This document shows, in pieces, positions 16,139 to 57,241 of a stretch of DNA of 64,000 nt. The notes beneath the pieces were generated by a model. The model saw only the letters and a list, made by a program, of their open reading frames with translations, was not told where the DNA came from and ran no database searches. Source of the DNA: Solobacterium sp. (GTDB lineage Bacteria; Bacillota_I; Bacilli_A; Erysipelotrichales; Erysipelotrichaceae); the NCBI GenBank assembly GCA_017430925.1, contig JAFRMA010000011.1, positions 1 through 64,000 of the forward strand, given 5' to 3'. The position numbers and the translations under genes are program-made. Numbering within the stretch: position 1 is the first letter of the stretch; each line of letters begins with the position of its first letter.

Positions 16139-16753
16139 ATGGGATTATTTGACAAACTGCTGAAAGAAGGCACAGAAAAACTTAAGGAAGTCACAAAAGA
16201 AGTCACCAGCGAAGAAAACAAAGAGAAAGCTTCTGCGTTCCTGAATTCACTTAAGGAGACGGTCAGCGAAGGCGCTGAGGCAATCAAGGAAGCCGCCAAA
16301 GAAGCCACTACAGAAGAAAACAAGGAGAAGGCAGCCGCATTCATCCATTCACTCAAGAATACGATTGAGAAAGAAGCAGGACAGCCGAAAAAGACCGCAG
16401 AAACACCCGTATACGATGATTCCATCTACGAGGAATACGAAGATGGGAAGACCTGCCGGCAGAGGATCCTCGAGATCCTGGCCAATGAATTCCCGGAATA
16501 TACCGTGAGAGAGAACGTATCTCCGCAGGAATTCCATGGCGTAGGCCGTTTCATGGATTATTCCATCGTGGTATACAAGGACGGTACGCCGAAGCTGGTG
16601 ATCATGTTAATAGGGAAGACCACCACCTCCCACCGTGAATACCGCTGGTCACGTGAAGAAGCAGAGAAACACGGTTATCCGTTCATCAACTTTGTCAAAC
16701 ACTATCCGAACAGACCGGAATATATTTCCAACAGATTACATCAGTACTTGTAA
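16139..16753 (+). CDS. Unknown protein: amphipathic helical repeats plus compact C-terminal domain
   Basis: I do not recognise this 204-residue protein. Residues 1-80 are Lys/Glu/Ala-rich and made of two near copies of a unit of about 35-38 residues, each containing (S/T)EENKEKA(S/A)AF(L/I)(N/H)SLK, so a helical, coiled-coil-like region is likely. Residues 100-204 form a globular domain with ILANEFPEYTVRENV, then MDYSIVVYKDGTPKLVIML, and RWSREEAEKHGYPFINFV. The Asp plus strand-strand-Lys pattern (D-x(n)-LVIMLIGK) faintly resembles a PD-(D/E)XK nuclease, but the middle acidic residue is absent. GGAGGTTTGGC precedes the ATG. It lies 150 bases upstream of the reverse transcriptase on the same strand, so a shared transcript is possible. 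Confidence 0.65.
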   Translation: MGLFDKLLKEGTEKLKEVTKEVTSEENKEKASAFLNSLKETVSEGAEAIKEAAKEATTEENKEKAAAFIHSLKNTIEKEAGQPKKTAETPVYDDSIYEEYEDGKTCRQRILEILANEFPEYTVRENVSPQEFHGVGRFMDYSIVVYKDGTPKLVIMLIGKTTTSHREYRWSREEAEKHGYPFINFVKHYPNRPEYISNRLHQYL

Positions 16754-46415: not shown

Positions 46416-47114
46416 TCATAATGGTTTCTTCTTGATCTGTCCGTAATTTCTCGGATATTTCCCGGGTGTTATCCGGGTTTTTCCGGCAGTGATGATCGTC
46501 CGTCCGTCACCGGAAGGCAGTGTATATTCCCGGATCTCGCTGTGTTCAATACCGAGAACCTGAAACGCATGCTCTGCCTGCTGGTATTCCTCCAGGCCTT
46601 TCGTACCCTTCATAGAGACGAAGTATCCTCCGGGCTTTACCAACGGTACACATAGTTCTGCCAGGACAGGCAGGGATGCGACGGCTCTCGCGATGGCGAC
46701 ATCCGCCTGTTCACGTTTTGTTTTGACATATTCTTCCGCGCGCTGATTCACCACGGTAATGTTGTTCAGCTTCAGTTCCTGCCGGATTTCTTCCAGAAAA
46801 CGGCATCGTTTGGCTGTTGGCTCAATGAGAATGACCTTCAGATCACTCCGGGCTATCGCAAACACCACCCCGGGAAAACCTGCGCCTGTGCCGACATCCG
46901 CAACCGTGCCGTTGATCCGCGGATCGGTCAGCGGGTATAACGAATCATAGAAATGCTTTTCATAGATTTCTTCCGGGTCGGTAATCGCTGTCAGGTTAAA
47001 TTCCTGGTTGCGGCGGATCAGCAGATCCATGTATACCGCCAGTTTCTCCGGCGCTTCTGCCAGCAGATCGATACCGATTCCGGCTGTTTTTACCAAGAAC
47101 TCATCCCTGTTCAT
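46416..47114 (-). CDS. rsmG: 16S rRNA (guanine(527)-N7)-methyltransferase RsmG (GidB)
   Basis: The 232-residue protein has NLTAITDPEEIYEKHFYDSL, the GidB signature, SAM motif VADVGTGAGFPGVVFA, and RAVASLPVLAELCVPLVKPG. RsmG methylates G527 in 16S rRNA. It starts the rsmG-noc-parA-parB cluster. In most Bacillota mnmG precedes it; here mnmG is 10 kb away at 57231. CAATGAGGATGTT precedes the ATG. Confidence 0.95.
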   Translation of the reverse strand: MNRDEFLVKTAGIGIDLLAEAPEKLAVYMDLLIRRNQEFNLTAITDPEEIYEKHFYDSLYPLTDPRINGTVADVGTGAGFPGVVFAIARSDLKVILIEPTAKRCRFLEEIRQELKLNNITVVNQRAEEYVKTKREQADVAIARAVASLPVLAELCVPLVKPGGYFVSMKGTKGLEEYQQAEHAFQVLGIEHSEIREYTLPSGDGRTIITAGKTRITPGKYPRNYGQIKKKPL

Positions 47115-47276
47115 AACATCCTCATTGTAGTAATTCTACCACTATTATTTCCCAAATTATATAATATTTCCTGCGTAGTTTGGACAGTTCCTGTATATAG
47201 GGTACGTAGTGCGTAATTTCTCTTTTCGCGGAGATGAAAAACCGTTATGATGATTATATCGGAAAGGAAGACCCGG

Positions 47277-48710
47277 ATGGATACAGTACACACACATGAT
47301 CCGCTGAATTGGGAAGCCCTCATGCAGGGAGAATACGTTGAACTAAGCGCGATGCTTGCGGCCAAGGAGAGACGTGTCTATCTACAGCAGGAATTACTGC
47401 GCAAACATCCGTGCTCGATGCTTTCTTTCAGTATGAATATTGCCGGACCCGTGAAGAATAATCCCCTGATCCTGCGCGCGTTTACCTATGGCCTTGAAGC
47501 GGTCCACGCCCAGCTCTACCGTATTCGTGCCGCAATCCCGGAAGAACACATCCTCCGGGAAATTACCGGTAATGAAGCTTTTCTGGCAATAAAACTGGAT
47601 CCCTTCGTATTAAAGAAGCTTGTCTCGGAGATTGAGGAACAGGAATCTGCCGGAAGACTTTTTGACATGGATGTGCTGTATCTGGACCACGATGAAGTAG
47701 TCAAAGTTGACCGTTCGGAGATCGGTCTTGCGGAGAGAAGCTGTCTGATCTGCGGCGCACCCGGGAGGAACTGTGCATCCCGGCGTGTTCATTCCGTGGC
47801 AGAACTGCAGAAGAAGACCGCGGAGATCCTGGATGCGTATGTCCGGGCAGAAGACGCAAGGAAGATCGCGGAATATGCCGTACAGGCAATGTTGTACGAA
47901 GTATCCAACACGCCTAAACCAGGCCTTGTGGACCGTGTAAACAACGGCAGTCATGACGATATGGACTTCTATACCTTCCTGAACAGCAGCGCATCTCTGT
48001 ATCCCTACTTTCTGAAATGTACAGAGACCGGGCAGAATACCGCGTTTGCGGATGCACCGGATACCTTTGACCTTCTGCGTGATCCCGGTAAGCAGGCAGA
48101 ACGGCATATGTTTTCCGCCACAAGGGGAGTCAACACCCATAAAGGCGCGATCTTCACCCTGGGTATCCTTACCGCTGCGGCCGGAAGGCTCTCTGTACGT
48201 TCATTGTATTCCGTTGAACAAACTGATCATCACGACATTTCCGCTGTATTATCTGAATGCAGGGCAATGACCAGAGACCTGATTTCCAGGGATTTCGCGG
48301 GAATCACCCGGGAAAACGCGGTTACGGCAGGACAACGCTTATACGCGGAATACGGCATTACCGGGGTGCGGGGACAGATGGCAGATGGATTGCCTGCGGT
48401 TGCGGAATATGGTCTTCCGGTACTGCGGAAAATGCTTAGTTACGGGAAGACTACGGATGCGGCAGGCGCTTCCGCGTTACTATCCATACTTGCGCATACC
48501 ACGGACACCAACATGATCCACCGCAGTTCGCTGGAGACCCAGAAGGAAGAAAACGAAAAACTCCTGCATATCCTGCAGGAGGATCCCTGTCCTGACCGGA
48601 ATACTCTGGAAGAACTGGATGAACACTATATTGAAAACCATCTCTCTCCGGGAGGCAGCGCAGATCTGCTTGCGGCATCCTGGTTTCTGTACTTTCTGGA
48701 AAATGTGTAA
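47277..48710 (+). CDS. citXG: CitX-CitG fusion: citrate lyase prosthetic group enzymes
   Basis: The 477-residue protein joins two enzymes. Residues 1-180 are CitX (apo-citrate lyase phosphoribosyl-dephospho-CoA transferase): KHPCSMLSFSMNIAGPVKNN and GRLFDMDVLYLDHDEV, then RSCLICGAPGRNC. Residues 195-477 are CitG (triphosphoribosyl-dephospho-CoA synthase): VSNTPKPGLVDRVNNGSHDD, ATRGVNTHKGAIFTLGIL and the C-terminal PGGSADLLAASWFLYFL. The two act in series on CitD, forming the ATP-dependent cofactor and attaching it. ATG 47277 has GGAAAGGAAG upstream; the frame opens at 47247. It lies far from citDEF. Confidence 0.92.
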   Translation: MDTVHTHDPLNWEALMQGEYVELSAMLAAKERRVYLQQELLRKHPCSMLSFSMNIAGPVKNNPLILRAFTYGLEAVHAQLYRIRAAIPEEHILREITGNEAFLAIKLDPFVLKKLVSEIEEQESAGRLFDMDVLYLDHDEVVKVDRSEIGLAERSCLICGAPGRNCASRRVHSVAELQKKTAEILDAYVRAEDARKIAEYAVQAMLYEVSNTPKPGLVDRVNNGSHDDMDFYTFLNSSASLYPYFLKCTETGQNTAFADAPDTFDLLRDPGKQAERHMFSATRGVNTHKGAIFTLGILTAAAGRLSVRSLYSVEQTDHHDISAVLSECRAMTRDLISRDFAGITRENAVTAGQRLYAEYGITGVRGQMADGLPAVAEYGLPVLRKMLSYGKTTDAAGASALLSILAHTTDTNMIHRSSLETQKEENEKLLHILQEDPCPDRNTLEELDEHYIENHLSPGGSADLLAASWFLYFLENV

Positions 48711-48795
48711 GTCAATGATATTTGATACTAATGATATGAAGAAACTGTTTCAAACCTTATGTTCCGCTATCTTCATGTCAAACAGGAGCTGAACG

Positions 48796-49533
48796 ATGCA
48801 CAGGTTAAGTATTAACGCGTTGACCCTGAAGCTCATCGCTGTTATCACCATGCTTATTGATCATTTTGCGGCCTCAGGGCTTCTGCGGAGGTACTTTCCT
48901 TTAGGATTCTTCAGTTTTGGCTACCGGAATACCTATTACATATTCCGCTATATCGGCAGGTTCGCCTTTCCCATCTATTGTTTCCTGCTTATTGAAGGTA
49001 TACGTCATACCAGGGACTGGCGGAAGTATGCCCTGCGGCTTTTTCTCTTCGCCCTTCTTTCCGAGATACCCTTTGATATGGCATTCCGGCATACTTTCTT
49101 TGATTACGGTCACCAGAACGTATACTTTACTCTTTTATCAGGTTTACTGCCGGTAGTATACCTGCGGCATTCCAAGCAGGAGAAACCGCTTCGTTATCTG
49201 TACTATACAGTCATGGTAGGCATCTCTGCCTGTCTTGCCCATTGGGTTTTCCACTGTGATTACAGGGCTGGCGGTATCGTACAGATCGGTATATTCGGCC
49301 TTCTTCTTGATACTACCACAGACAGACTGCGTAACTTCCTGTGCGGCAGTGCCGGAATCCTTGCCTGCTGTCTTGTACTGCACAATTCCATTGAAATCTA
49401 TGCCTTACTCTCTCTGATTCCCATTAGTTACTATAACGGGAAAAAGGGCCCTTCGGGAGAAGCCCTCAAATATACTTTCTACGCCATCTACCCTTTACAC
49501 CTGCTGGTATTTGGCTGGCTTATCATGCATTGA
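48796..49533 (+). CDS. TraX-family membrane protein
   Basis: The 245-residue protein starts MHRLSINALTLKLIAVITML and has about eight membrane helices with IDHFA near residue 23 and FRYIGRFAFPIYCFLLIEG near residue 51, the TraX (PF05857) signature. TraX acetylates F-pilin, but chromosomal homologues like this are of unknown role and are probably acyltransferases. CAGGAGCTGAACG precedes the ATG. A terminator follows. Confidence 0.85.
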   Translation: MHRLSINALTLKLIAVITMLIDHFAASGLLRRYFPLGFFSFGYRNTYYIFRYIGRFAFPIYCFLLIEGIRHTRDWRKYALRLFLFALLSEIPFDMAFRHTFFDYGHQNVYFTLLSGLLPVVYLRHSKQEKPLRYLYYTVMVGISACLAHWVFHCDYRAGGIVQIGIFGLLLDTTTDRLRNFLCGSAGILACCLVLHNSIEIYALLSLIPISYYNGKKGPSGEALKYTFYAIYPLHLLVFGWLIMH

Positions 49534-49543
49534 TTATACCTGG

Positions 49544-49563
49544 AGGGGTGAATACCCCTTTTA
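49544..49563 (+). terminator. Terminator of the traX-like gene
   Basis: AGGGGT and ACCCCT pair around GAAT and are followed by TTTTATTCTT. On the opposite strand it would also end the relic reading frame at 49561. Confidence 0.75.
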
Positions 49564-49646
49564 TTCTTGTATGTGTTCTCTTACTGCTTCGGAAGCCTCC
49601 CGGAGGCAGCGCAGATCTGCCTGCGGTATTCTGGTTCTTGTACTAA
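49561..49646. pseudogene. Fused relics of two gene tails: a GHL10-like lipoprotein gene and citG
   Basis: On the minus strand bases 49561-49599 read EASEAVREHIQE then stop, close to the last residues of the GHL10-like gene at 50627 (EASEAVREEIQHLQE); 21 bases are identical (49576-49596 and 50651-50671). On the plus strand bases 49598-49646 read PGGSADLPAVFWFLY then stop, close to the last residues of CitG (PGGSADLLAASWFLYF); about 41 of 47 bases match 48647-48693. The two tails abut at a shared TCCCGGA-like sequence. This indicates an old duplication or inversion joined through microhomology. Confidence 0.6.
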
Positions 49647-49652
49647 TAATTC

Positions 49653-50543
49653 CTAAAGTTTCTCGTTCAGGAATTCCAGGACGATCTGATGTACCTCTTC
49701 CTGGAAGAATTCATTTGAACCATGATCTGCCCCGTGGATGACATAGTAAGAGATCTCTTTCTCCTGTTGCGTCATGACGTTGTAATATAGCTCACTCTGT
49801 CCGATATTGACTGTACGGTCGCTGTCTCCGTGCATCACCAGAACCGGACAGGTTTTTACGTTGATACCGTTGATTCCGCCGGCTTTTTTCGCCAGTTCCG
49901 GTACATTGTCCGGTAAATCTCCCAGTAATTCACACTCCGGGAAACTATGAGGATCGGCAGATCTGCCTTGTCTGATACGTTCATCAATTCTCTTCAGGTT
50001 AAAGTGATAGACTTCCTCAATATCCGCGATTCCATAGAAATCCACTGCGCATTTGACAATACTGCTTACTCCGGGATACTTATCCGTGTCAAACTGACCA
50101 TCATTGTTAGCTGCCAGCAAGGTCAGATGACCTCCCGCGGAAGAACCCATGATCCCGATACGTTCCGGATCGATTCCATACTTGTCCGCGTTTGTTTTCA
50201 AAAAGCGTACACCGGTTAGTACATCCTGGATCTGTGCCGGGAATACTGCCTCTTTCAGGATCCTGTATTCTACTGCCGCAACGATATATCCGTTTTCAGC
50301 CAGGTATAACAGTTCCGGAAGCATTTCCGCTGCGCGTTCTCTTCCGCCACGCCAGGCGCCTCCGCACACCCAGACCATACAGGGCATTTTCTTCTTGTCC
50401 GTACTGCGTATGCCGTAGGGAGTAAGTAAAGATATATGCAGGTCTCGGATCTCTCCGCCGGTGATTTCCTGACTGTCATAGACAATTCCCTGGGTGAGAT
50501 AGATATGTTTATGCCGGATCTCCGGCTGAATGACCTTTCTCAT
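49653..50543 (-). CDS. Alpha/beta hydrolase, BD-FAE/esterase-lipase type
   Basis: The 296-residue protein has an oxyanion region MVWVCGGAWRGG (HGG-like, with Cys in place of His), nucleophile elbow GIMGSSAGGHLTLL with the serine, aspartate in VLVMHGDSDRTVNIG, and His in IHGADHGSNEFFQEEV. This is the esterase/acetyl-esterase group (BD-FAE-like). No signal peptide. ATG 50543 has GCGGAGGTATACAA before it. Neighbouring terminators isolate it as a single-gene unit. Substrate unknown. Confidence 0.83.
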   Translation of the reverse strand: MRKVIQPEIRHKHIYLTQGIVYDSQEITGGEIRDLHISLLTPYGIRSTDKKKMPCMVWVCGGAWRGGRERAAEMLPELLYLAENGYIVAAVEYRILKEAVFPAQIQDVLTGVRFLKTNADKYGIDPERIGIMGSSAGGHLTLLAANNDGQFDTDKYPGVSSIVKCAVDFYGIADIEEVYHFNLKRIDERIRQGRSADPHSFPECELLGDLPDNVPELAKKAGGINGINVKTCPVLVMHGDSDRTVNIGQSELYYNVMTQQEKEISYYVIHGADHGSNEFFQEEVHQIVLEFLNEKL

Positions 50544-50575
50544 TTGTATACCTCCGCTCTTATACAAAATATAAA

Positions 50576-50600
50576 GGAATACAGCGGAAAACTGTATTCC
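50576..50600 (-). terminator. Terminator of the GHL10-like lipoprotein gene
   Basis: GGAATACAG and CTGTATTCC pair perfectly around a 7-base loop, with TTTATATTTTG following on the minus strand. It is 26 bases past the stop at 50627. Confidence 0.82.
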
Positions 50601-50626
50601 ATTCTTTTATTCATAAACAGAGTCTC

Positions 50627-51778
50627 TTATTCCTGTAAATGCTGTATCTCTTCTCTTACTGCTTCGGAAGCTTCCGGATCAAACAATGAGTAATACCGGA
50701 AGAACGCATAACCCTTACAACCTTGTTCCAGAGCATAGTTGATCTGCCGTTTCAGGATATCGTGATTGTCCACCCACTCTTGTGCCGCATCTCCTGCGTA
50801 TCCATCTGCAGTACCTGCCTTGTATGCCGCAAGACCGGCATATAACTCGGTTTCGTGTTCACCAACGATAGCGATCCATTCATCTGTTGTGGGCATATAC
50901 GGACGTACGGGATTCTCAAAGCCCCAGTAGATCTGCGGAATCAGATAATCAATCAGGCCTTCTTCCATCCAGTAAGACACATCCGCGTATATACTGTCAT
51001 AGTTGTACTGGTTATTCCCGGATACGGAGATTCCGAATCTTTTCTTCTTGGCTTTGACTACGTCATGGATCTCCCTGACCAGGGTATTGATCTGTTTGCG
51101 GCGGAAGTCTTCCCGGCTGATCGGTTCGTTGTAGTTTTCTTCCTCGTACAGGTATGCGTCAAAGTTACGCCCTGCCCCGTCCGGATAGAAATAGTCATCA
51201 AGGTGTATACCATCCACATCGTACTTCTCCAGAATCTCCCGGATATTGGATACGATGAGTTCCCTTACATCTTCGTAGGCAGGATTGAGGTAGTATCTTC
51301 CCCCGACATAGCGTATACGTTCGTTGTTTTCCTTTACCCACTGTTTCAGGATAAATCCGTCATCCCAGTACTCTGTTTCTTCTTCCAGGACAGAGCGCAG
51401 GGGATTGACCCAGGCTTCTACCTGGATATTTTGTTCGTGTGCCCTCTTGATGAATATCGCAAAAGGGTCATAGGTCAGATCTTCATAGTCTTTGACTCTG
51501 GGATAGATGGTACTTTCGTGGTAGGCATCGGTAAAGGCTGTCGCGTGGAGATAAATCGTATTTACACCGATACTCTTCACATTATCCAGAATCTGGTCCA
51601 CCATTCCTTCATAGCCTTTTTCATCTCTTCCCATGAGGGTCTCCTGATAATCCAGGAAGGAGAACCAGATTGCCTTGGTGATCTGTTCCTCTGGTTCTTT
51701 ATTCTTTGTGCATCCGGACAGGAAAAGAACCACCGTGAACAGACAGGCAAAGATTGTGCGTATATACCGGGTTTTCAT
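50627..51778 (-). CDS. GHL10 (DUF4015/family 10-like) glycoside hydrolase lipoprotein
   Basis: The 383-residue protein starts MKTRYIRTIFACLFTVVLFL followed by SGC, a lipoprotein signal. The body matches the GHL10/DUF187-like glycoside hydrolases: IWFSFLDYQETL, NTIYLHATAFTDAYHES, VEAWVNPLRSVLE, YDVDGIHLDDYFYPDGAGRN (with candidate catalytic Asp) and FGISVSGNNQYNYDSIYADV. These surface enzymes probably cleave a peptidoglycan-like or polysaccharide substrate; none is known with certainty. ATG 51778 is the plausible start; the ribosome-binding site is weak. Confidence 0.82.
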   Translation of the reverse strand: MKTRYIRTIFACLFTVVLFLSGCTKNKEPEEQITKAIWFSFLDYQETLMGRDEKGYEGMVDQILDNVKSIGVNTIYLHATAFTDAYHESTIYPRVKDYEDLTYDPFAIFIKRAHEQNIQVEAWVNPLRSVLEEETEYWDDGFILKQWVKENNERIRYVGGRYYLNPAYEDVRELIVSNIREILEKYDVDGIHLDDYFYPDGAGRNFDAYLYEEENYNEPISREDFRRKQINTLVREIHDVVKAKKKRFGISVSGNNQYNYDSIYADVSYWMEEGLIDYLIPQIYWGFENPVRPYMPTTDEWIAIVGEHETELYAGLAAYKAGTADGYAGDAAQEWVDNHDILKRQINYALEQGCKGYAFFRYYSLFDPEASEAVREEIQHLQE

Positions 51779-51841
51779 CTTGTATCTATTGTATCGGGTT
51801 TCCGGGCAGAAGAAAATCCATCTTTTCGCTATAATAGGGAT

Positions 51842-52879
51842 ATGAAACAACGGGAAGCCAATTATGACTTATTGCGGATTCTTGCGTGTGCCGGGGTTGT
51901 GCTTGTCCATGTGAGCGCGATTTTTGCGGAGACGTTTATCTGGGATCTGGCGGACGGACTGCCGGGGAATCATCCGTTCTATACGCTGATGTACAATTCA
52001 GCGGGACGTTTTGCGGTGCCGGTATTTTTGATGTTGACGGGTGCGTTTGTGCTGGGTGATGCGAGAACGGCAGATTACCGCGCTTTCTACAGGAATTCTC
52101 TGAAGAAGATCGGTATCCCTTATCTGATCATTGTGCTGGTGTCTTGTCTGTACAATGCCTGGATTGCTTATCGTATTGAATATACCGGGATGGCAGGTGT
52201 CTTTGGCCCGCTGATCAAGGGGGTACCGTTCTACCATCTCTGGTACATGAGTGTATTGTTTATGATTTATCTGTTCCTGCCGTGGATCGAGCGTGTGCGG
52301 ATGAAACTGTCCCCCCGTGGTTTTGCGGTTCTTTCCGTGGTGTGGCTGCTGGCTGGAAATACCTGGCTGTATCTTGCGGATCCGGTGACCATGCACTGGA
52401 ATCCGTGGGAAGCGCTATGTTATACAGGCTATGTCCTGATGGGTTATGTGATTCGTACGACTGTTCGCAGGGATTCGCGGGGCTGGCTGCTTGTCCTGGC
52501 CGGGATCGTTCTTGAACTGTGGCTGGGTTATCAAGTATACACAGGCATACGTCACGGTCTGGACAGAGAGCTCCTGGAACAGCGCTGGCTGCTGGCGTAT
52601 ACACCGGGAATCACGGTATCTTCCCTGCTGGTCTTTTCCGGTTTCGGGATGATCAATATCGACAGGGATTTCCGTAATCTCTCCATGTACAGTTATCCGG
52701 TCTTTCTGGTTCATGCCCTGGTTTTGGATCTGGTCCTGCGTCTTTCGCGGTACTATCTCGGGCAGCGCTGGCTGGCACATCTGGATTCCCGGATCTTCAT
52801 TCCTTTCCTGACTTTGCTTATCCTCATCATTTCCCGGGTGATTTCCCCGTGTCTGATGCGTCCGAAAACACACAAATAA
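51842..52879 (+). CDS. Acyltransferase-3 family membrane protein (WecH/OafA-like)
   Basis: The 345-residue protein starts MKQREANYDLLRILACAGVV with the family pattern (R..D..R..A...V...H) followed by VHVSAIFAE and about ten membrane helices. It probably O-acetylates a surface polysaccharide or another envelope molecule. Its start is only 63 bases from the divergent GHL10-like gene. A TATAAT box (51830-51835) ends 6 bases before the ATG, so the transcript may have an almost absent leader. Confidence 0.8.
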   Translation: MKQREANYDLLRILACAGVVLVHVSAIFAETFIWDLADGLPGNHPFYTLMYNSAGRFAVPVFLMLTGAFVLGDARTADYRAFYRNSLKKIGIPYLIIVLVSCLYNAWIAYRIEYTGMAGVFGPLIKGVPFYHLWYMSVLFMIYLFLPWIERVRMKLSPRGFAVLSVVWLLAGNTWLYLADPVTMHWNPWEALCYTGYVLMGYVIRTTVRRDSRGWLLVLAGIVLELWLGYQVYTGIRHGLDRELLEQRWLLAYTPGITVSSLLVFSGFGMINIDRDFRNLSMYSYPVFLVHALVLDLVLRLSRYYLGQRWLAHLDSRIFIPFLTLLILIISRVISPCLMRPKTHK

Positions 52880-52924
52880 AACCAATTCTCTGTTATCATG
52901 AAAACAGAACAGGAGACCATGTCT

Positions 52925-54562
52925 ATGTCAAACAACGAGCCGGTATACATCACAGGTCATCAGCACCCCGATACGGATTCTGTCGTTTCCGCGATTGCCT
53001 ACGCATTATTCAAGCGGGCGATGGGGATCAAGGCTGTACCCTGCTGTCTCGGCAAACTAAGCAACGAAACAAAATATCTGCTGGACCGCTTCGGATATGA
53101 GGAACCCACGTTACTGAGCGATGCCAGAAAAACCCTGAAAGAAATCAGCTATGATGAACCTCTGTGTGTCACTGCAGACAAGACCATCATGGAAACGATC
53201 AACACCATGAAGGAAACGAACCGCCCGGGTTTTGCGGTCGTGGATGAAGAGAAGCGCCTGATCGGCTTTATCTCCAAGAGTGACCTTCTGGATATCGGAC
53301 TTGGGGATACCGCCCACGGAATTGATCTGTTACGGCAGACTTCCGCGAAGAATATTGCCAAGACGATCAGCGGGAAACTGATCTATGATGATCCCCAGAT
53401 GCATATCAACGGTAAGGTATCCATCATCGCCCTGACCCAGAGCGGTCTGGAGAACTACGAGATCCATGACCGTATTGTCATCATGGGAGATGATCCGGAA
53501 GCCCAGATCAAGCTGATCGAGAAAGGCGCGGGAATCCTGATCGTGGTATGGACACAGGCGATCCGTGAAGATGTACTCAAAGCCGCCCGGGAACATCACT
53601 GTCCGGTGATTATTTCCGGTCATGGTTCGATGAATACCTCAAGATATATCTTCTTTGCGCCGGAGATCCGTCTGGTCATGACACAGAAACCGGTATTCTT
53701 CCGGGATACCGATTTAGCGGAGGAAGCCGGCAGGAAGATGTTGACTACCCGTTTCCGTAACTATCCGATCCTCGACAGCGAAGATCATCTGATCGGTTAT
53801 GTCAGCCGTTATCACATCATGAATTACCAGAACAAGAAGATCATCCTGGTGGACCATAACGAATTCTCCCAATCCGTAAAGGCTGTAGAGAAGGCACAGA
53901 TCCTGGAGGTCGTCGACCATCACCGGATCAATGACTTCGCCACCTCACAGCCGGTATCTTTCCGCAACGAGATCGTCGGTTCCACTGCCACGATCATTGC
54001 GACAATGTACAGGGAGAACCAGATCCCCATCCCCCAGAAACTAGCGGGATTATTACTTGGGGCAGTACTCTCCGATACGTTACTGCTTCAGTCGCCGACC
54101 ACGACGCGCAAAGACAAGGAAACAGCGAATATCCTGGCTGCCCTGGCCGACCTGGATGTGGAGACCTTCGGACGTGAGATGTTTGAGGCTACCGCTTCCA
54201 ACATGAACCAGAGTATCCAGGAGATGATCGTCCAGGATATCAAATACTTTGAGATCAGCGGATGCCGTACCATGATCTCCCAGGCCATGGTTACTTCCAC
54301 ACACCAACTCTGGGGCAAGGAACGGGATATCCAGAGAGAACTGAATAAACTGGTAGAAAAAAAAGAACTGGACCTTCTGGTGGCCGCATTTACTTCTGTC
54401 TCGGAAGACGGCTCTGTCTTCTTCGCCGCGGGTGAACAGGCAGACAAGTGCTTTGAGGCCTTCCCGGGAATTGAGGATCATCTGCACGTACTGCAGAAAG
54501 GCATCCTCTCCCGTAAGAGCCAGATCCTGCCGGAGATCACCAGAGTACTGAATAATTCCTGA
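52925..54562 (+). CDS. ppaC: Manganese-type inorganic pyrophosphatase with CBS and DRTGG domains
   Basis: The 545-residue protein has the family II pyrophosphatase DHH core: TGHQHPDTDSVVSAIAYA at the start, VVDHHRINDFA near residue 335 and a DHHA2 domain with KELDLLVAAFTSVSED at the end. Two CBS motifs (IMETINTMKETNRPGFAVVD, VMTQKPVFFRDTDLAEE) flank a DRTGG-like region (about 130-230), an insert that in related enzymes binds adenine nucleotides. It hydrolyses pyrophosphate and is regulated by nucleotides. ATG 52925 is chosen for spacing from CAGGAGACCATGTCT. It lies 45 bases after the acyltransferase gene. Confidence 0.9.
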   Translation: MSNNEPVYITGHQHPDTDSVVSAIAYALFKRAMGIKAVPCCLGKLSNETKYLLDRFGYEEPTLLSDARKTLKEISYDEPLCVTADKTIMETINTMKETNRPGFAVVDEEKRLIGFISKSDLLDIGLGDTAHGIDLLRQTSAKNIAKTISGKLIYDDPQMHINGKVSIIALTQSGLENYEIHDRIVIMGDDPEAQIKLIEKGAGILIVVWTQAIREDVLKAAREHHCPVIISGHGSMNTSRYIFFAPEIRLVMTQKPVFFRDTDLAEEAGRKMLTTRFRNYPILDSEDHLIGYVSRYHIMNYQNKKIILVDHNEFSQSVKAVEKAQILEVVDHHRINDFATSQPVSFRNEIVGSTATIIATMYRENQIPIPQKLAGLLLGAVLSDTLLLQSPTTTRKDKETANILAALADLDVETFGREMFEATASNMNQSIQEMIVQDIKYFEISGCRTMISQAMVTSTHQLWGKERDIQRELNKLVEKKELDLLVAAFTSVSEDGSVFFAAGEQADKCFEAFPGIEDHLHVLQKGILSRKSQILPEITRVLNNS

Positions 54563-54578
54563 CGATTAAGGAGATGAC

Positions 54579-55151
54579 ATGTTCGAAACGATCAGTAAGA
54601 AAAGAACCGAAAAGATTCTGAAGGAATATGATTCCTGGATTCATTCTCTGTCGGCGAAGTACCACATTCCGGCGGCTTTTATCCAGGCGATCCTGTACAT
54701 GGAAATGACCAGGATCAACCTGGTTGATTACGCGGCAGACTTTGCGGTATGGACCGGGGTATTCCCCAAGAAAGACAGTTCTACAGGATATGCGCAGATT
54801 TTCGGCTTTGTCGGACTGAACGCAGTGAACTTTGCGGCTGATCGCGGACTGACCAGTTATGCGGCATTACATATACCCAGCGATCACCGTCTAAACCGGC
54901 ATGACCCCAAAGATGTACGCCTGATGTGGAAATATCTGCACCATGACCGTAAGGCAAACCTGGAAGTAGCGGTACTGAACATGTTAAGCGCTGCGGAAGA
55001 AATGACCGGACGCATAGACTTTGACAGTTACACTGAAGATGAACTGAAACATATCTTCACCCGGTATAATGCGAATACCGACAGGATTACCGAATATGGG
55101 GAGACTGCGTATAAGCATTACCTGAGATTCATGTCACAAAAAAAGGATTAA
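54579..55151 (+). CDS. Lysozyme/transglycosylase-like protein of unknown role
   Basis: The 190-residue protein contains KYHIPAAFIQAILYMEMTRI, where the Glu after the helix is in the place of a transglycosylase acid, followed by SSTGYAQIFGFVGLNAVNFA, which resembles the GLMQI motif. The end, TRYNANTDRITEYGETAYKHY, is like SLT domains. There is no signal peptide, so it may act on internal or released substrates, or be exported otherwise. TTAAGGAGATGAC precedes the ATG, 16 bases past the pyrophosphatase. Assignment is tentative. Confidence 0.6.
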   Translation: MFETISKKRTEKILKEYDSWIHSLSAKYHIPAAFIQAILYMEMTRINLVDYAADFAVWTGVFPKKDSSTGYAQIFGFVGLNAVNFAADRGLTSYAALHIPSDHRLNRHDPKDVRLMWKYLHHDRKANLEVAVLNMLSAAEEMTGRIDFDSYTEDELKHIFTRYNANTDRITEYGETAYKHYLRFMSQKKD

Positions 55152-55165
55152 ACAATCCTTTTTTT
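55138..55165. terminator. Bidirectional terminator between convergent genes
   Basis: AAAAAAAGGATT and AATCCTTTTTTT form a perfect stem with an AAAC loop. It overlaps the stop codons of both the transglycosylase-like gene (55151) and the MATE gene (55164). Confidence 0.9.
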
Positions 55166-56516
55166 ACGCCTGTACAGCCTCCAACGCAAACTTCTTTTCC
55201 AGTTTCTTCTTACAAATCAGATAGGCAGGTAAGGCAAACGCTGCGGTAAAGACCCATGCCAGTGTATTCGCGAAACATACGCCGGTGAAGCCGAACGGAC
55301 CTGCCAGTACCCAGCACGCGAACATACGTCCAAGTACTTCGGTCATTCCTGTCACCAGACTGACCATCGGGTATCCCATGCCCTGAATGATCCCCGGTGT
55401 ACAGGTTGCCGGTCCAAGGACCGTAAAACCAATCACGTTGATGAGGTTTGCCAGATACCCTAGTTCTATGACTTCCACCGGGGGATTCTCCACAAACAAT
55501 GCCACAAACGAACGTCCGAAGAAGATGGATATCAACAAGTCTATACAGGTAATTCCCAGATCCAGCAGGATGGCGGCACGCAGACCCTGAGATACACGAT
55601 CCAGACGGCGGGCACCGATATTCTGACCGGCAAACGGAGATACGGCCTGATTTACAGCCATGATCGGGGACGACAAGATTCCATACATCTTCCCTGACGC
55701 AACCATTCCCGCAATCGCATATGTCCCGAGTCCGTTGACCGCATACTGCAGGATTGCCGCCCCGGCCGCAATGATCGAACTGCGGATCCCCATAGGTAAG
55801 CCGTAACGCAAAGTTTCTTTCGTCAGTGTATGACTTTCATCCCAGGATCGTCTGTTGATATGCAGGATCGGTAATTTACGGCGGATATGGATCAGGCAGG
55901 CAAATCCGGAAGTAGCCTGGGCAATGACTGTAGCCAGAGCTGCCCCGCGTACGCCAAGACCCAGCCAGAGGATAAATACCAGATCGAGGACGATATTCAA
56001 AAGTGACGCGAATACCAGCATCAGGAACGGTGTACGGCTGTCTCCCAGGGAACGTATACAGCTCGCAGAGTAGTTATAAACCATGGTAAACGGCACCCCG
56101 AGGATGATCACCAGGATATACGCATGCGCATAGGGGAAGATCTCTGCCGGTGTCTTCAGTGCCTGCAGGATGGGTCCGATGGTCAGAGCCAGGACTGTGG
56201 TCCCGCACAAGACAATGATGATTGCCAGACGTATACCCGCGGACAGATATCTGCGCACCATCTCATGACGTTTACCGCCGAAGTTCTGCGCTACCGGTAT
56301 ACAGAAACCGTTACATAATCCTCCGAAGAACCAGATCACCAGATTGGAGAAGATGGAAGTGGCGCCGACACCCGCAAGCTGGTTCAATCCCAGGAAACGT
56401 CCGACAATGACCGTATCCGCAACACTGTAAAATTGTTGGAACAGGATACCCAGCCAGACCGGGAAAGCGAATTTCAGGATATGTTTCAAGGGTGATCCCT
56501 GCGTCATGTTGTTCAT
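55164..56516 (-). CDS. MATE-family multidrug/drug:cation antiporter
   Basis: The 450-residue protein has twelve membrane segments in two homologous bundles with MTQGSPLKHILKFAFPVWLG at the start and FYSVADTVIVGRFLGLNQLA, a MATE motif. The second half has AVNQAVSPFAGQNIGARRLD, the matching second motif. It exports small cations or drugs against Na+ or H+. The tail is Lys-rich (KKKLEKKFALEAVQA). AGAGGCTTACC precedes the ATG. It is isolated by terminators on both sides. Confidence 0.9.
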   Translation of the reverse strand: MNNMTQGSPLKHILKFAFPVWLGILFQQFYSVADTVIVGRFLGLNQLAGVGATSIFSNLVIWFFGGLCNGFCIPVAQNFGGKRHEMVRRYLSAGIRLAIIIVLCGTTVLALTIGPILQALKTPAEIFPYAHAYILVIILGVPFTMVYNYSASCIRSLGDSRTPFLMLVFASLLNIVLDLVFILWLGLGVRGAALATVIAQATSGFACLIHIRRKLPILHINRRSWDESHTLTKETLRYGLPMGIRSSIIAAGAAILQYAVNGLGTYAIAGMVASGKMYGILSSPIMAVNQAVSPFAGQNIGARRLDRVSQGLRAAILLDLGITCIDLLISIFFGRSFVALFVENPPVEVIELGYLANLINVIGFTVLGPATCTPGIIQGMGYPMVSLVTGMTEVLGRMFACWVLAGPFGFTGVCFANTLAWVFTAAFALPAYLICKKKLEKKFALEAVQA

Positions 56517-56558
56517 GGTAAGCCTCTTTCTGTTGCATATGCCGGGATTAGATCAAAT

Positions 56559-56581
56559 AGCCCTGAAGGATGTTCAGGGCT
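56559..56581 (-). terminator. Terminator of the ThyX-like gene
   Basis: AGCCCTGAA and TTCAGGGCT pair perfectly around a 5-base loop, with ATTTGATC following on the minus strand. T-run is short, so efficiency is uncertain. Confidence 0.65.
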
Positions 56582-56608
56582 TGTATGCAGGGATTAGTGA
56601 CGACAGGG

Positions 56609-57241
56609 TTATTTCTGCGTGTTGGTGATAAATACAGAATACGGCAGGGTCTCGATCCACTTGCAGAATGTACGCCATTCCGGAAGACGATGATCTTTCC
56701 GCTGGATATACATGGTTTTCAGCTGACGGTAGTTCGTGGTCATCCTTGCGGTGATCTTGAAGCCTGCAGGATTGGAGTATAAAATCTCCAGATATCTGCG
56801 GGTCAGTTCCTGACGGAGTTCGGCGGTATCCTGTCCCTCTGCCTGTTTCTCCTTCAGGGTATTCTGCAGTTCGTTGTACTCTCTGACTTTTTCTTTCATG
56901 ATCTCAATGATCCGGGGATCGGTGTATTCGATGTAGGCTTTATCCAGATCAAATTTGGTGATCCTGTGCATCGTACTCTGGGAACTGACAAAGTCAAAGA
57001 AGTGATATCGTTCGGCTTCTACCCATGCCTTATTGGTAAAGGTCAGGTCAAACTGTACGATGATTCCGTTCATGAAGTTGTCATGTCCGCTGCCCATCGG
57101 TGAGTTGGCCAGCCGGTGTGTGGTTTCGGTGATCGTTCCGTCTATGGCATTCACATCGACTGCCATGGAGAACTTTGCGCCTCGTACGGAATCCTCCAGA
57201 CCATATACATTCACGTTATTTACTACTTCTTCAATTTTCAT
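56609..57241 (-). CDS. Divergent ThyX-like protein of unknown function
   Basis: The 210-residue protein begins MKIEEVVNNVNVYGLEDSVR and has FNGIIVQ-type strands, FDFVSSQSTMHRITKFDLDK, a long charged helix (about 115-150), and ITARMTTNYRQLKTMYIQRK then LPEWRTFCKWIETLPY. The last part has the pattern T-x-N-x-R-x-L...R...P-E-W-x-T-F, recalling the end of flavin-dependent thymidylate synthases. The RHRxxSxxQxS motif is not clear, so activity cannot be claimed. The gene overlaps the mnmG stop by 11 bases and is thus in the mnmG operon. Confidence 0.5.
   Translation of the reverse strand: MKIEEVVNNVNVYGLEDSVRGAKFSMAVDVNAIDGTITETTHRLANSPMGSGHDNFMNGIIVQFDLTFTNKAWVEAERYHFFDFVSSQSTMHRITKFDLDKAYIEYTDPRIIEIMKEKVREYNELQNTLKEKQAEGQDTAELRQELTRRYLEILYSNPAGFKITARMTTNYRQLKTMYIQRKDHRLPEWRTFCKWIETLPYSVFITNTQK

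Follow-up and report, generated by a model that had tools for sequence, protein, structure and literature searches.

A decayed intergenic seam built from the swapped ends of two neighbouring genes

How does the short interval between two genes come to hold the ends of two other genes, one from either side of it? The question is raised by an 86-base scar at 49561-49646 of the window (the whole 64-kb stretch of DNA that was analysed), which lies between a traX-like gene (48796-49533, plus) and an alpha/beta hydrolase gene (49653-50543, minus), whose 3' ends face it; the stop codon of the hydrolase gene begins 7 bases from the scar. The scar consists of a copied GHL10 gene end, read on the minus strand, and a copied citG end, read on the plus strand, and the parent sequences lie 951 and 1,075 bp away, one on each side. 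It is the worn seam of an old local rearrangement to which two neighbouring genes contributed their final codons. The features of the locus are the following.

47247-48710, plus: citG (a CitX-CitG fusion), parent of the right piece; Pfam CitG 2.3e-77, CitX 1.1e-46; breakpoint TCCGG at 48647-48651
48652-50677, unstranded: putative duplicated unit of 2,026 bp (citG tail, traX, hydrolase, GHL10 tail), deduced from the two breakpoints
48796-49533, plus: traX-like gene, lying between citG and the scar; Pfam TraX 5.8e-41
49541-49563, plus: terminator-like hairpin behind traX, abutting the left edge of the scar
49561-49600, minus: left piece, a copy of the 3' end of the GHL10 gene, EASEAVREHIQE, with stop codon TTA at 49561-49563; 82% identical over 44 nt to 50632-50675
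within 49561-49600, minus: 9-base deletion in the left piece relative to the sister species, whose copy is without the deletion
49595-49607, unstranded: joint, now GCCTCCCGGAGGC, for which the parents predict GCTTCCGGGAGGC, as aligned with the in-silico joint
49601-49646, plus: right piece, a copy of the 3' end of citG, PGGSADLPAVFWFLY, with stop codon TAA at 49644-49646; 42 of 48 bases identical to 48646-48693
49653-50543, minus: alpha/beta hydrolase (BD-FAE), lying between the scar and GHL10; Pfam BD-FAE 4.8e-48 (longer reading of the frame)
50627-51850, minus: GHL10 gene, parent of the left piece; Pfam GHL10 4.9e-46; breakpoint TCCGG at 50673-50677

The likeness of the scar to both gene ends is strong. 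The citG-tail repeat aligns 49597-49644 with 48646-48693 without gaps (42 of 48 bases, 88%), and the GHL10-tail repeat aligns 49557-49600 with 50632-50675, also without gaps (44 nt, 82%); the scar has an identical run of 21 bases, TTCTCTTACTGCTTCGGAAGC. In a BLAST search within the window the two repeats have E-values of 2e-9 and 4.5e-5 and make up two of the three self-repeat pairs at E <= 1e-3. Their scores are 60.8 and 47.3 bits, compared with a top score of 44.6 bits in the 20 second-order Markov windows that served as the null. Aligned to both gene ends set end to end, the scar scores 109, and random 97-base stretches of the window score at most 27 (n = 2,947). Chance similarity is ruled out by the self-comparison and the random stretches. 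A sequence-only reading of this DNA had described two gene tails, one GHL10-like and one of CitG, fused as an 86-bp scar, and matches so far above chance uphold this description, including its 21 bases identical with the GHL10 end; for citG it had counted about 41 of 47 bases, and our alignment gives the 42 of 48 stated above. Alignment with the two gene ends, which it proposed as a check for the regions 48600-48710 and 50620-50720, thus gave matches well above chance for both. A search of the genome (2.7 Mb, draft, 115 contigs) matched the scar and its two parents and no further copies, and with only three genome matches a dispersed repeat family is ruled out.

The same scar is present in a sister species (genome G056), which is about 91% identical to the window over 7.5 kb and has the same four genes in the same order. 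Because the assembly of a different species has it too, the scar is not an assembly artefact, an explanation that a draft of 115 contigs might otherwise invite; with scores far beyond the null in addition, chance similarity and artefact together retain a negligible probability. Differences between the scars and the parent genes fall into five common to both scars, five private to the window and four private to the sister species. Relative to each other, the window's scar lacks nine bases and that of the sister species three, the right edge has another indel, and the GHL10-frame tail of the sister species has gained a stop codon (codons read by eye). The scar decayed independently in the two species. 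Alignment of the two scars gives 9 differences in 80 bases (0.11), and divergence at fourfold sites is 0.12 in traX, 0.12 in the hydrolase gene, 0.18 in GHL10 and 0.30 in citG. The divergence of the scar is about that of the adjacent fourfold sites, and hence it drifts roughly like silent sites nearby. In the sister species, the 26 bases past the citG match have no above-chance likeness to the continuation of citG (557 of 2,000 shuffles were as good). The 3' part of the hydrolase gene (49653-50276) is unusually alike in both species, with 6 of 83 fourfold sites differing versus 8 of 38 in the 5' part, and its neighbours are more divergent, which suggests a later, recent exchange there with no bearing on the joint.

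What kind of event joins two gene ends in this way? Along the plus strand, the scar holds the GHL10 tail and then the citG tail; the chromosomal order is the opposite, with the GHL10 tail 2 kb beyond that of citG. Both pieces are in direct orientation relative to their parents. The sequence-only reading had called the tails fused head-on, which we correct: they meet by their interior sides and their reading directions diverge, with the stop codons at the outer edges of the scar (TTA at 49561-49563 in the minus reading, TAA at 49644-49646 in the plus reading). A direct (tandem) duplication is expected to leave this combination of swapped order and direct orientation at its novel joint. The motif TCCGG is present at both breakpoints of the window's genes, in citG at 48647-48651 and in GHL10 at 50673-50677; in citG of the sister species the breakpoint match has only four bases (CCGG). 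We built the joint in silico by placing the GHL10 end up to its TCCGG before the citG end after its TCCGG. This construct aligns with the window's scar over 77 bases with zero gaps, and its alignment with the scar of the sister species crosses the junction without a gap. At the joint, two positions (49597 and 49601) differ from the prediction, both in common with the sister species, and together they could be the outcome of one template switch within an imperfect palindrome. The exact breakpoint is uncertain, because two of the five shared differences fall inside the joint.

The older gene order can be seen in relatives. The 70 genomes of the genus that we compared, one per species, contain 25 GHL10 loci, two of which are the window and the sister species. 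In 22 of the 23 others gidB directly adjoins GHL10, and the last one (L055) is cut short at this point by its contig end; in one relative (G012) the GHL10 stop codon lies one base ahead of the gidB ATG. The citG, hydrolase and traX genes are located elsewhere in 15 compared stretches from ten relatives, and only the window and the sister species, among the 70 genomes, have citG and GHL10 close together on one contig. As far as the compared genomes show, citG, traX, the scar and the hydrolase gene occupy a GHL10-gidB interval that was opened in this lineage only. The scar used as a query against 272 genomes of the family matched only the window's genome, the sister species and, weakly, the citG end of one other genome (G077). 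Comparison with related strains had been proposed in the sequence-only reading as a way to find a longer ancestral copy; it yielded the same scar in the sister species and no such copy in the 272 genomes. A GTDB scan for citG gave nine loci, the one close locus being that of the sister species, and the 20-base joint pattern had no match in viral contigs.

Within 46416-57241, citG, traX and the hydrolase gene come between GHL10 and gidB. From GHL10 to the gene at 56609-57241, the intervening genes are an acyltransferase-like gene, a gene of 554 aa (52898), a small gene (54579) and a transporter-like gene (55164). GHL10 is flanked by these two lineage-specific blocks, near the parAB region. The names gidB, acyltransferase-like, transporter-like and parAB are those that we presume for these genes.

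We consider it probable that a direct duplication event, within one chromosome or between two alleles, made a novel joint and that the scar is this joint after decay. The event would predate the split of this species from the sister species, having occurred in their common ancestor. A break or a replication slip may have joined the GHL10 gene end (50673-50677) back to the citG end (48647-48651) via TCCGG, and the outer citG and GHL10 copies would have remained whole, leaving in the joint short ends of about 12-16 codons each. Redundant material flanking the joint would later have been lost, such that one traX on the left and one hydrolase gene on the right remain, and both tails would then have drifted without constraint. 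Full-length paralogs of citG and GHL10 are unnecessary, because duplicating the segment between the breakpoints gives exactly this joint. Of the sources named in the sequence-only reading, paralogous copies or duplicated tails, the duplicated tails therefore stand and the full-length paralogs can be dispensed with; its proposal that the pieces were joined through short homology and then decayed agrees with TCCGG at both breakpoints and with the independent decay in the sister species.

As in short-junction tandem duplications, the joint is in direct orientation and connects a downstream end to an upstream end, the outer gene copies are intact, and the breakpoints share a short identity (TCCGG in the window's genes). 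The segment between the breakpoints is not present in two copies; the locus has one traX and one close hydrolase gene, and thus we class the scar as a joint remnant and not as a duplication. No remnant of a second traX or hydrolase gene was seen beside the joint, no second close copy of either was found elsewhere in the genome, and the hydrolase gene has a single strong copy there. We infer the former full duplicated unit and the disappearance of the second traX and hydrolase genes.

Was the joint made within one chromosome? We give this about an even chance. On this path the hydrolase gene would have been lost to the left of the joint and traX to the right of it. An origin within one chromosome requires that two stretches were lost separately, with an end of each loss near a gene boundary. 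There is zero intervening sequence from the traX terminator to the scar, and the opposite side has between a few and 26 bases. The path of duplication and later loss is made of documented steps: identity of 0-5 bp predominates at the junctions of duplications in Acinetobacter baylyi (PMC9997567), and in Pseudomonas aeruginosa stability over thousands of generations is predicted for duplications of 2.6 and 3.3 kb (PMC12607827).

The alternative within the same explanation is an unequal illegitimate crossover between a citG-traX-GHL10 allele and a citG-hydrolase-GHL10 allele, for example by homology-facilitated illegitimate recombination, in which incoming DNA would have paired through homology at one side and been joined at TCCGG at the other. 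We hold such a crossover to be possible but doubtful. A single step of this kind, with zero later deletions, would account for the present order and bring two alternative cargo genes side by side, and it is consistent with the lineage-specific nature of the citG-traX-hydrolase block between gidB and GHL10 and with the tails of the window, which stop at the outer edges like natural gene ends. In addition, four of the five shared differences leave the amino acid of the parent frame unchanged, compared with three of the nine private ones, as if the tails had once been coding. Given an expected fraction of 0.23-0.29, at least four synonymous differences among five have a P of 0.012-0.027 (codon classes by eye), and a Fisher test of shared versus private differences gives p = 0.13; the excess is suggestive only. 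However, it may be the genes that changed at the shared sites, in which case mostly synonymous differences would be expected as well; the numbers are tiny, and neither allele was found in the 70 genomes of the genus (one per species). Duplication within one chromosome followed by loss is somewhat ahead of a crossover between alleles, and that the scar is the seam of a single illegitimate crossover, fusing a traX-bearing and a hydrolase-bearing gidB-GHL10 interval, is a tentative reading.

Two further explanations do without a duplication-type joint. Repair between traX and the hydrolase gene could have copied a patch of the GHL10 end and then one of the citG end, the larger unit never having been duplicated. 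Template-switch mutations and short-patch double illegitimate recombination are similar in kind, and such a repair would suit a short insert whose templates lie about 1 kb off on either side with nothing else duplicated. Yet it requires three jumps in one event and leaves unexplained why the patches end at or near the ends of the parent genes, and we regard it as unlikely. Alternatively, the scar could be a functional element under selection, such as a terminator, a small RNA or a bidirectional spacer, in line with the short palindrome in the joint and the terminator-like hairpin that abuts the left edge of the scar. But this terminator sits behind traX and, except for its last bases, outside the copied pieces; and the scar contains indels and varies about as fast as nearby silent sites. 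A functional RNA is ruled out by an Rfam search without a match and by folding no better than that of shuffles (z of -0.65 and -0.91). No function of the scar is indicated, and selection on it as an element is very improbable.

A duplication-type joint, our preferred reading, is an event of a known type, of which the scar is a tidy preserved example of the ordinary kind. Illegitimate short-junction tandem duplications (0-5 bp of identity), for example those of A. baylyi (PMC9997567), likewise have a direct downstream-to-upstream joint inside two genes at a few identical bases; unlike in those, nothing but the joint survives here, in a much decayed state, and the inner copies have been lost. 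Tandem duplication-random loss in animal mitochondrial genomes likewise involves a duplication followed by loss of one copy per gene, with non-coding remnants. In contrast, our case lies on a bacterial chromosome whose gene order need not have changed, and the lost genes themselves are not seen as remnants. Pairing on one side combined with an illegitimate joint, as in homology-facilitated illegitimate recombination and transformation-made merodiploids (PMC3240628, PMC3784515), could make such a seam; most Lac-negative recombinants analysed in PMC3240628 had a partial target duplication, ascribed there to single crossovers. The two alleles required for such recombination were not found here, and the merodiploids of PMC3784515 use longer repeats.

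The scar offers a clean natural case of a duplication-type joint outliving the duplication, and a species split gives it a relative date. Its signature is an intergenic stretch to which the flanking genes contribute their tails in swapped order. Scanning for it is easy and would allow the frequency of transient duplications or allele fusions in the growth of gene clusters to be counted across genomes. If the crossover between alleles were true, alternative cargo genes would have become neighbours, and swapped-tail seams could be searched for as signatures of accessory cluster growth. In a survey of the window and 16 other stretches (291,374 bases in all, a small sample covering a subset of loci), the two-sided tail pattern was present in the window at this locus and, among the 16, only in L120, which is the same locus in the sister species. 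The survey also flagged 16166-16363 of the window; we rejected this region because it is no joint but a single tandem pair that matches itself, with two 96-base copies that are 73% identical. Between the hydrolase gene and GHL10, a hairpin at 50576-50600 resembles a terminator on either strand. The window's genome has a second traX-like gene (L019, G000:C108:8716-9345), which is 34% identical and is read with one in-frame TGA.
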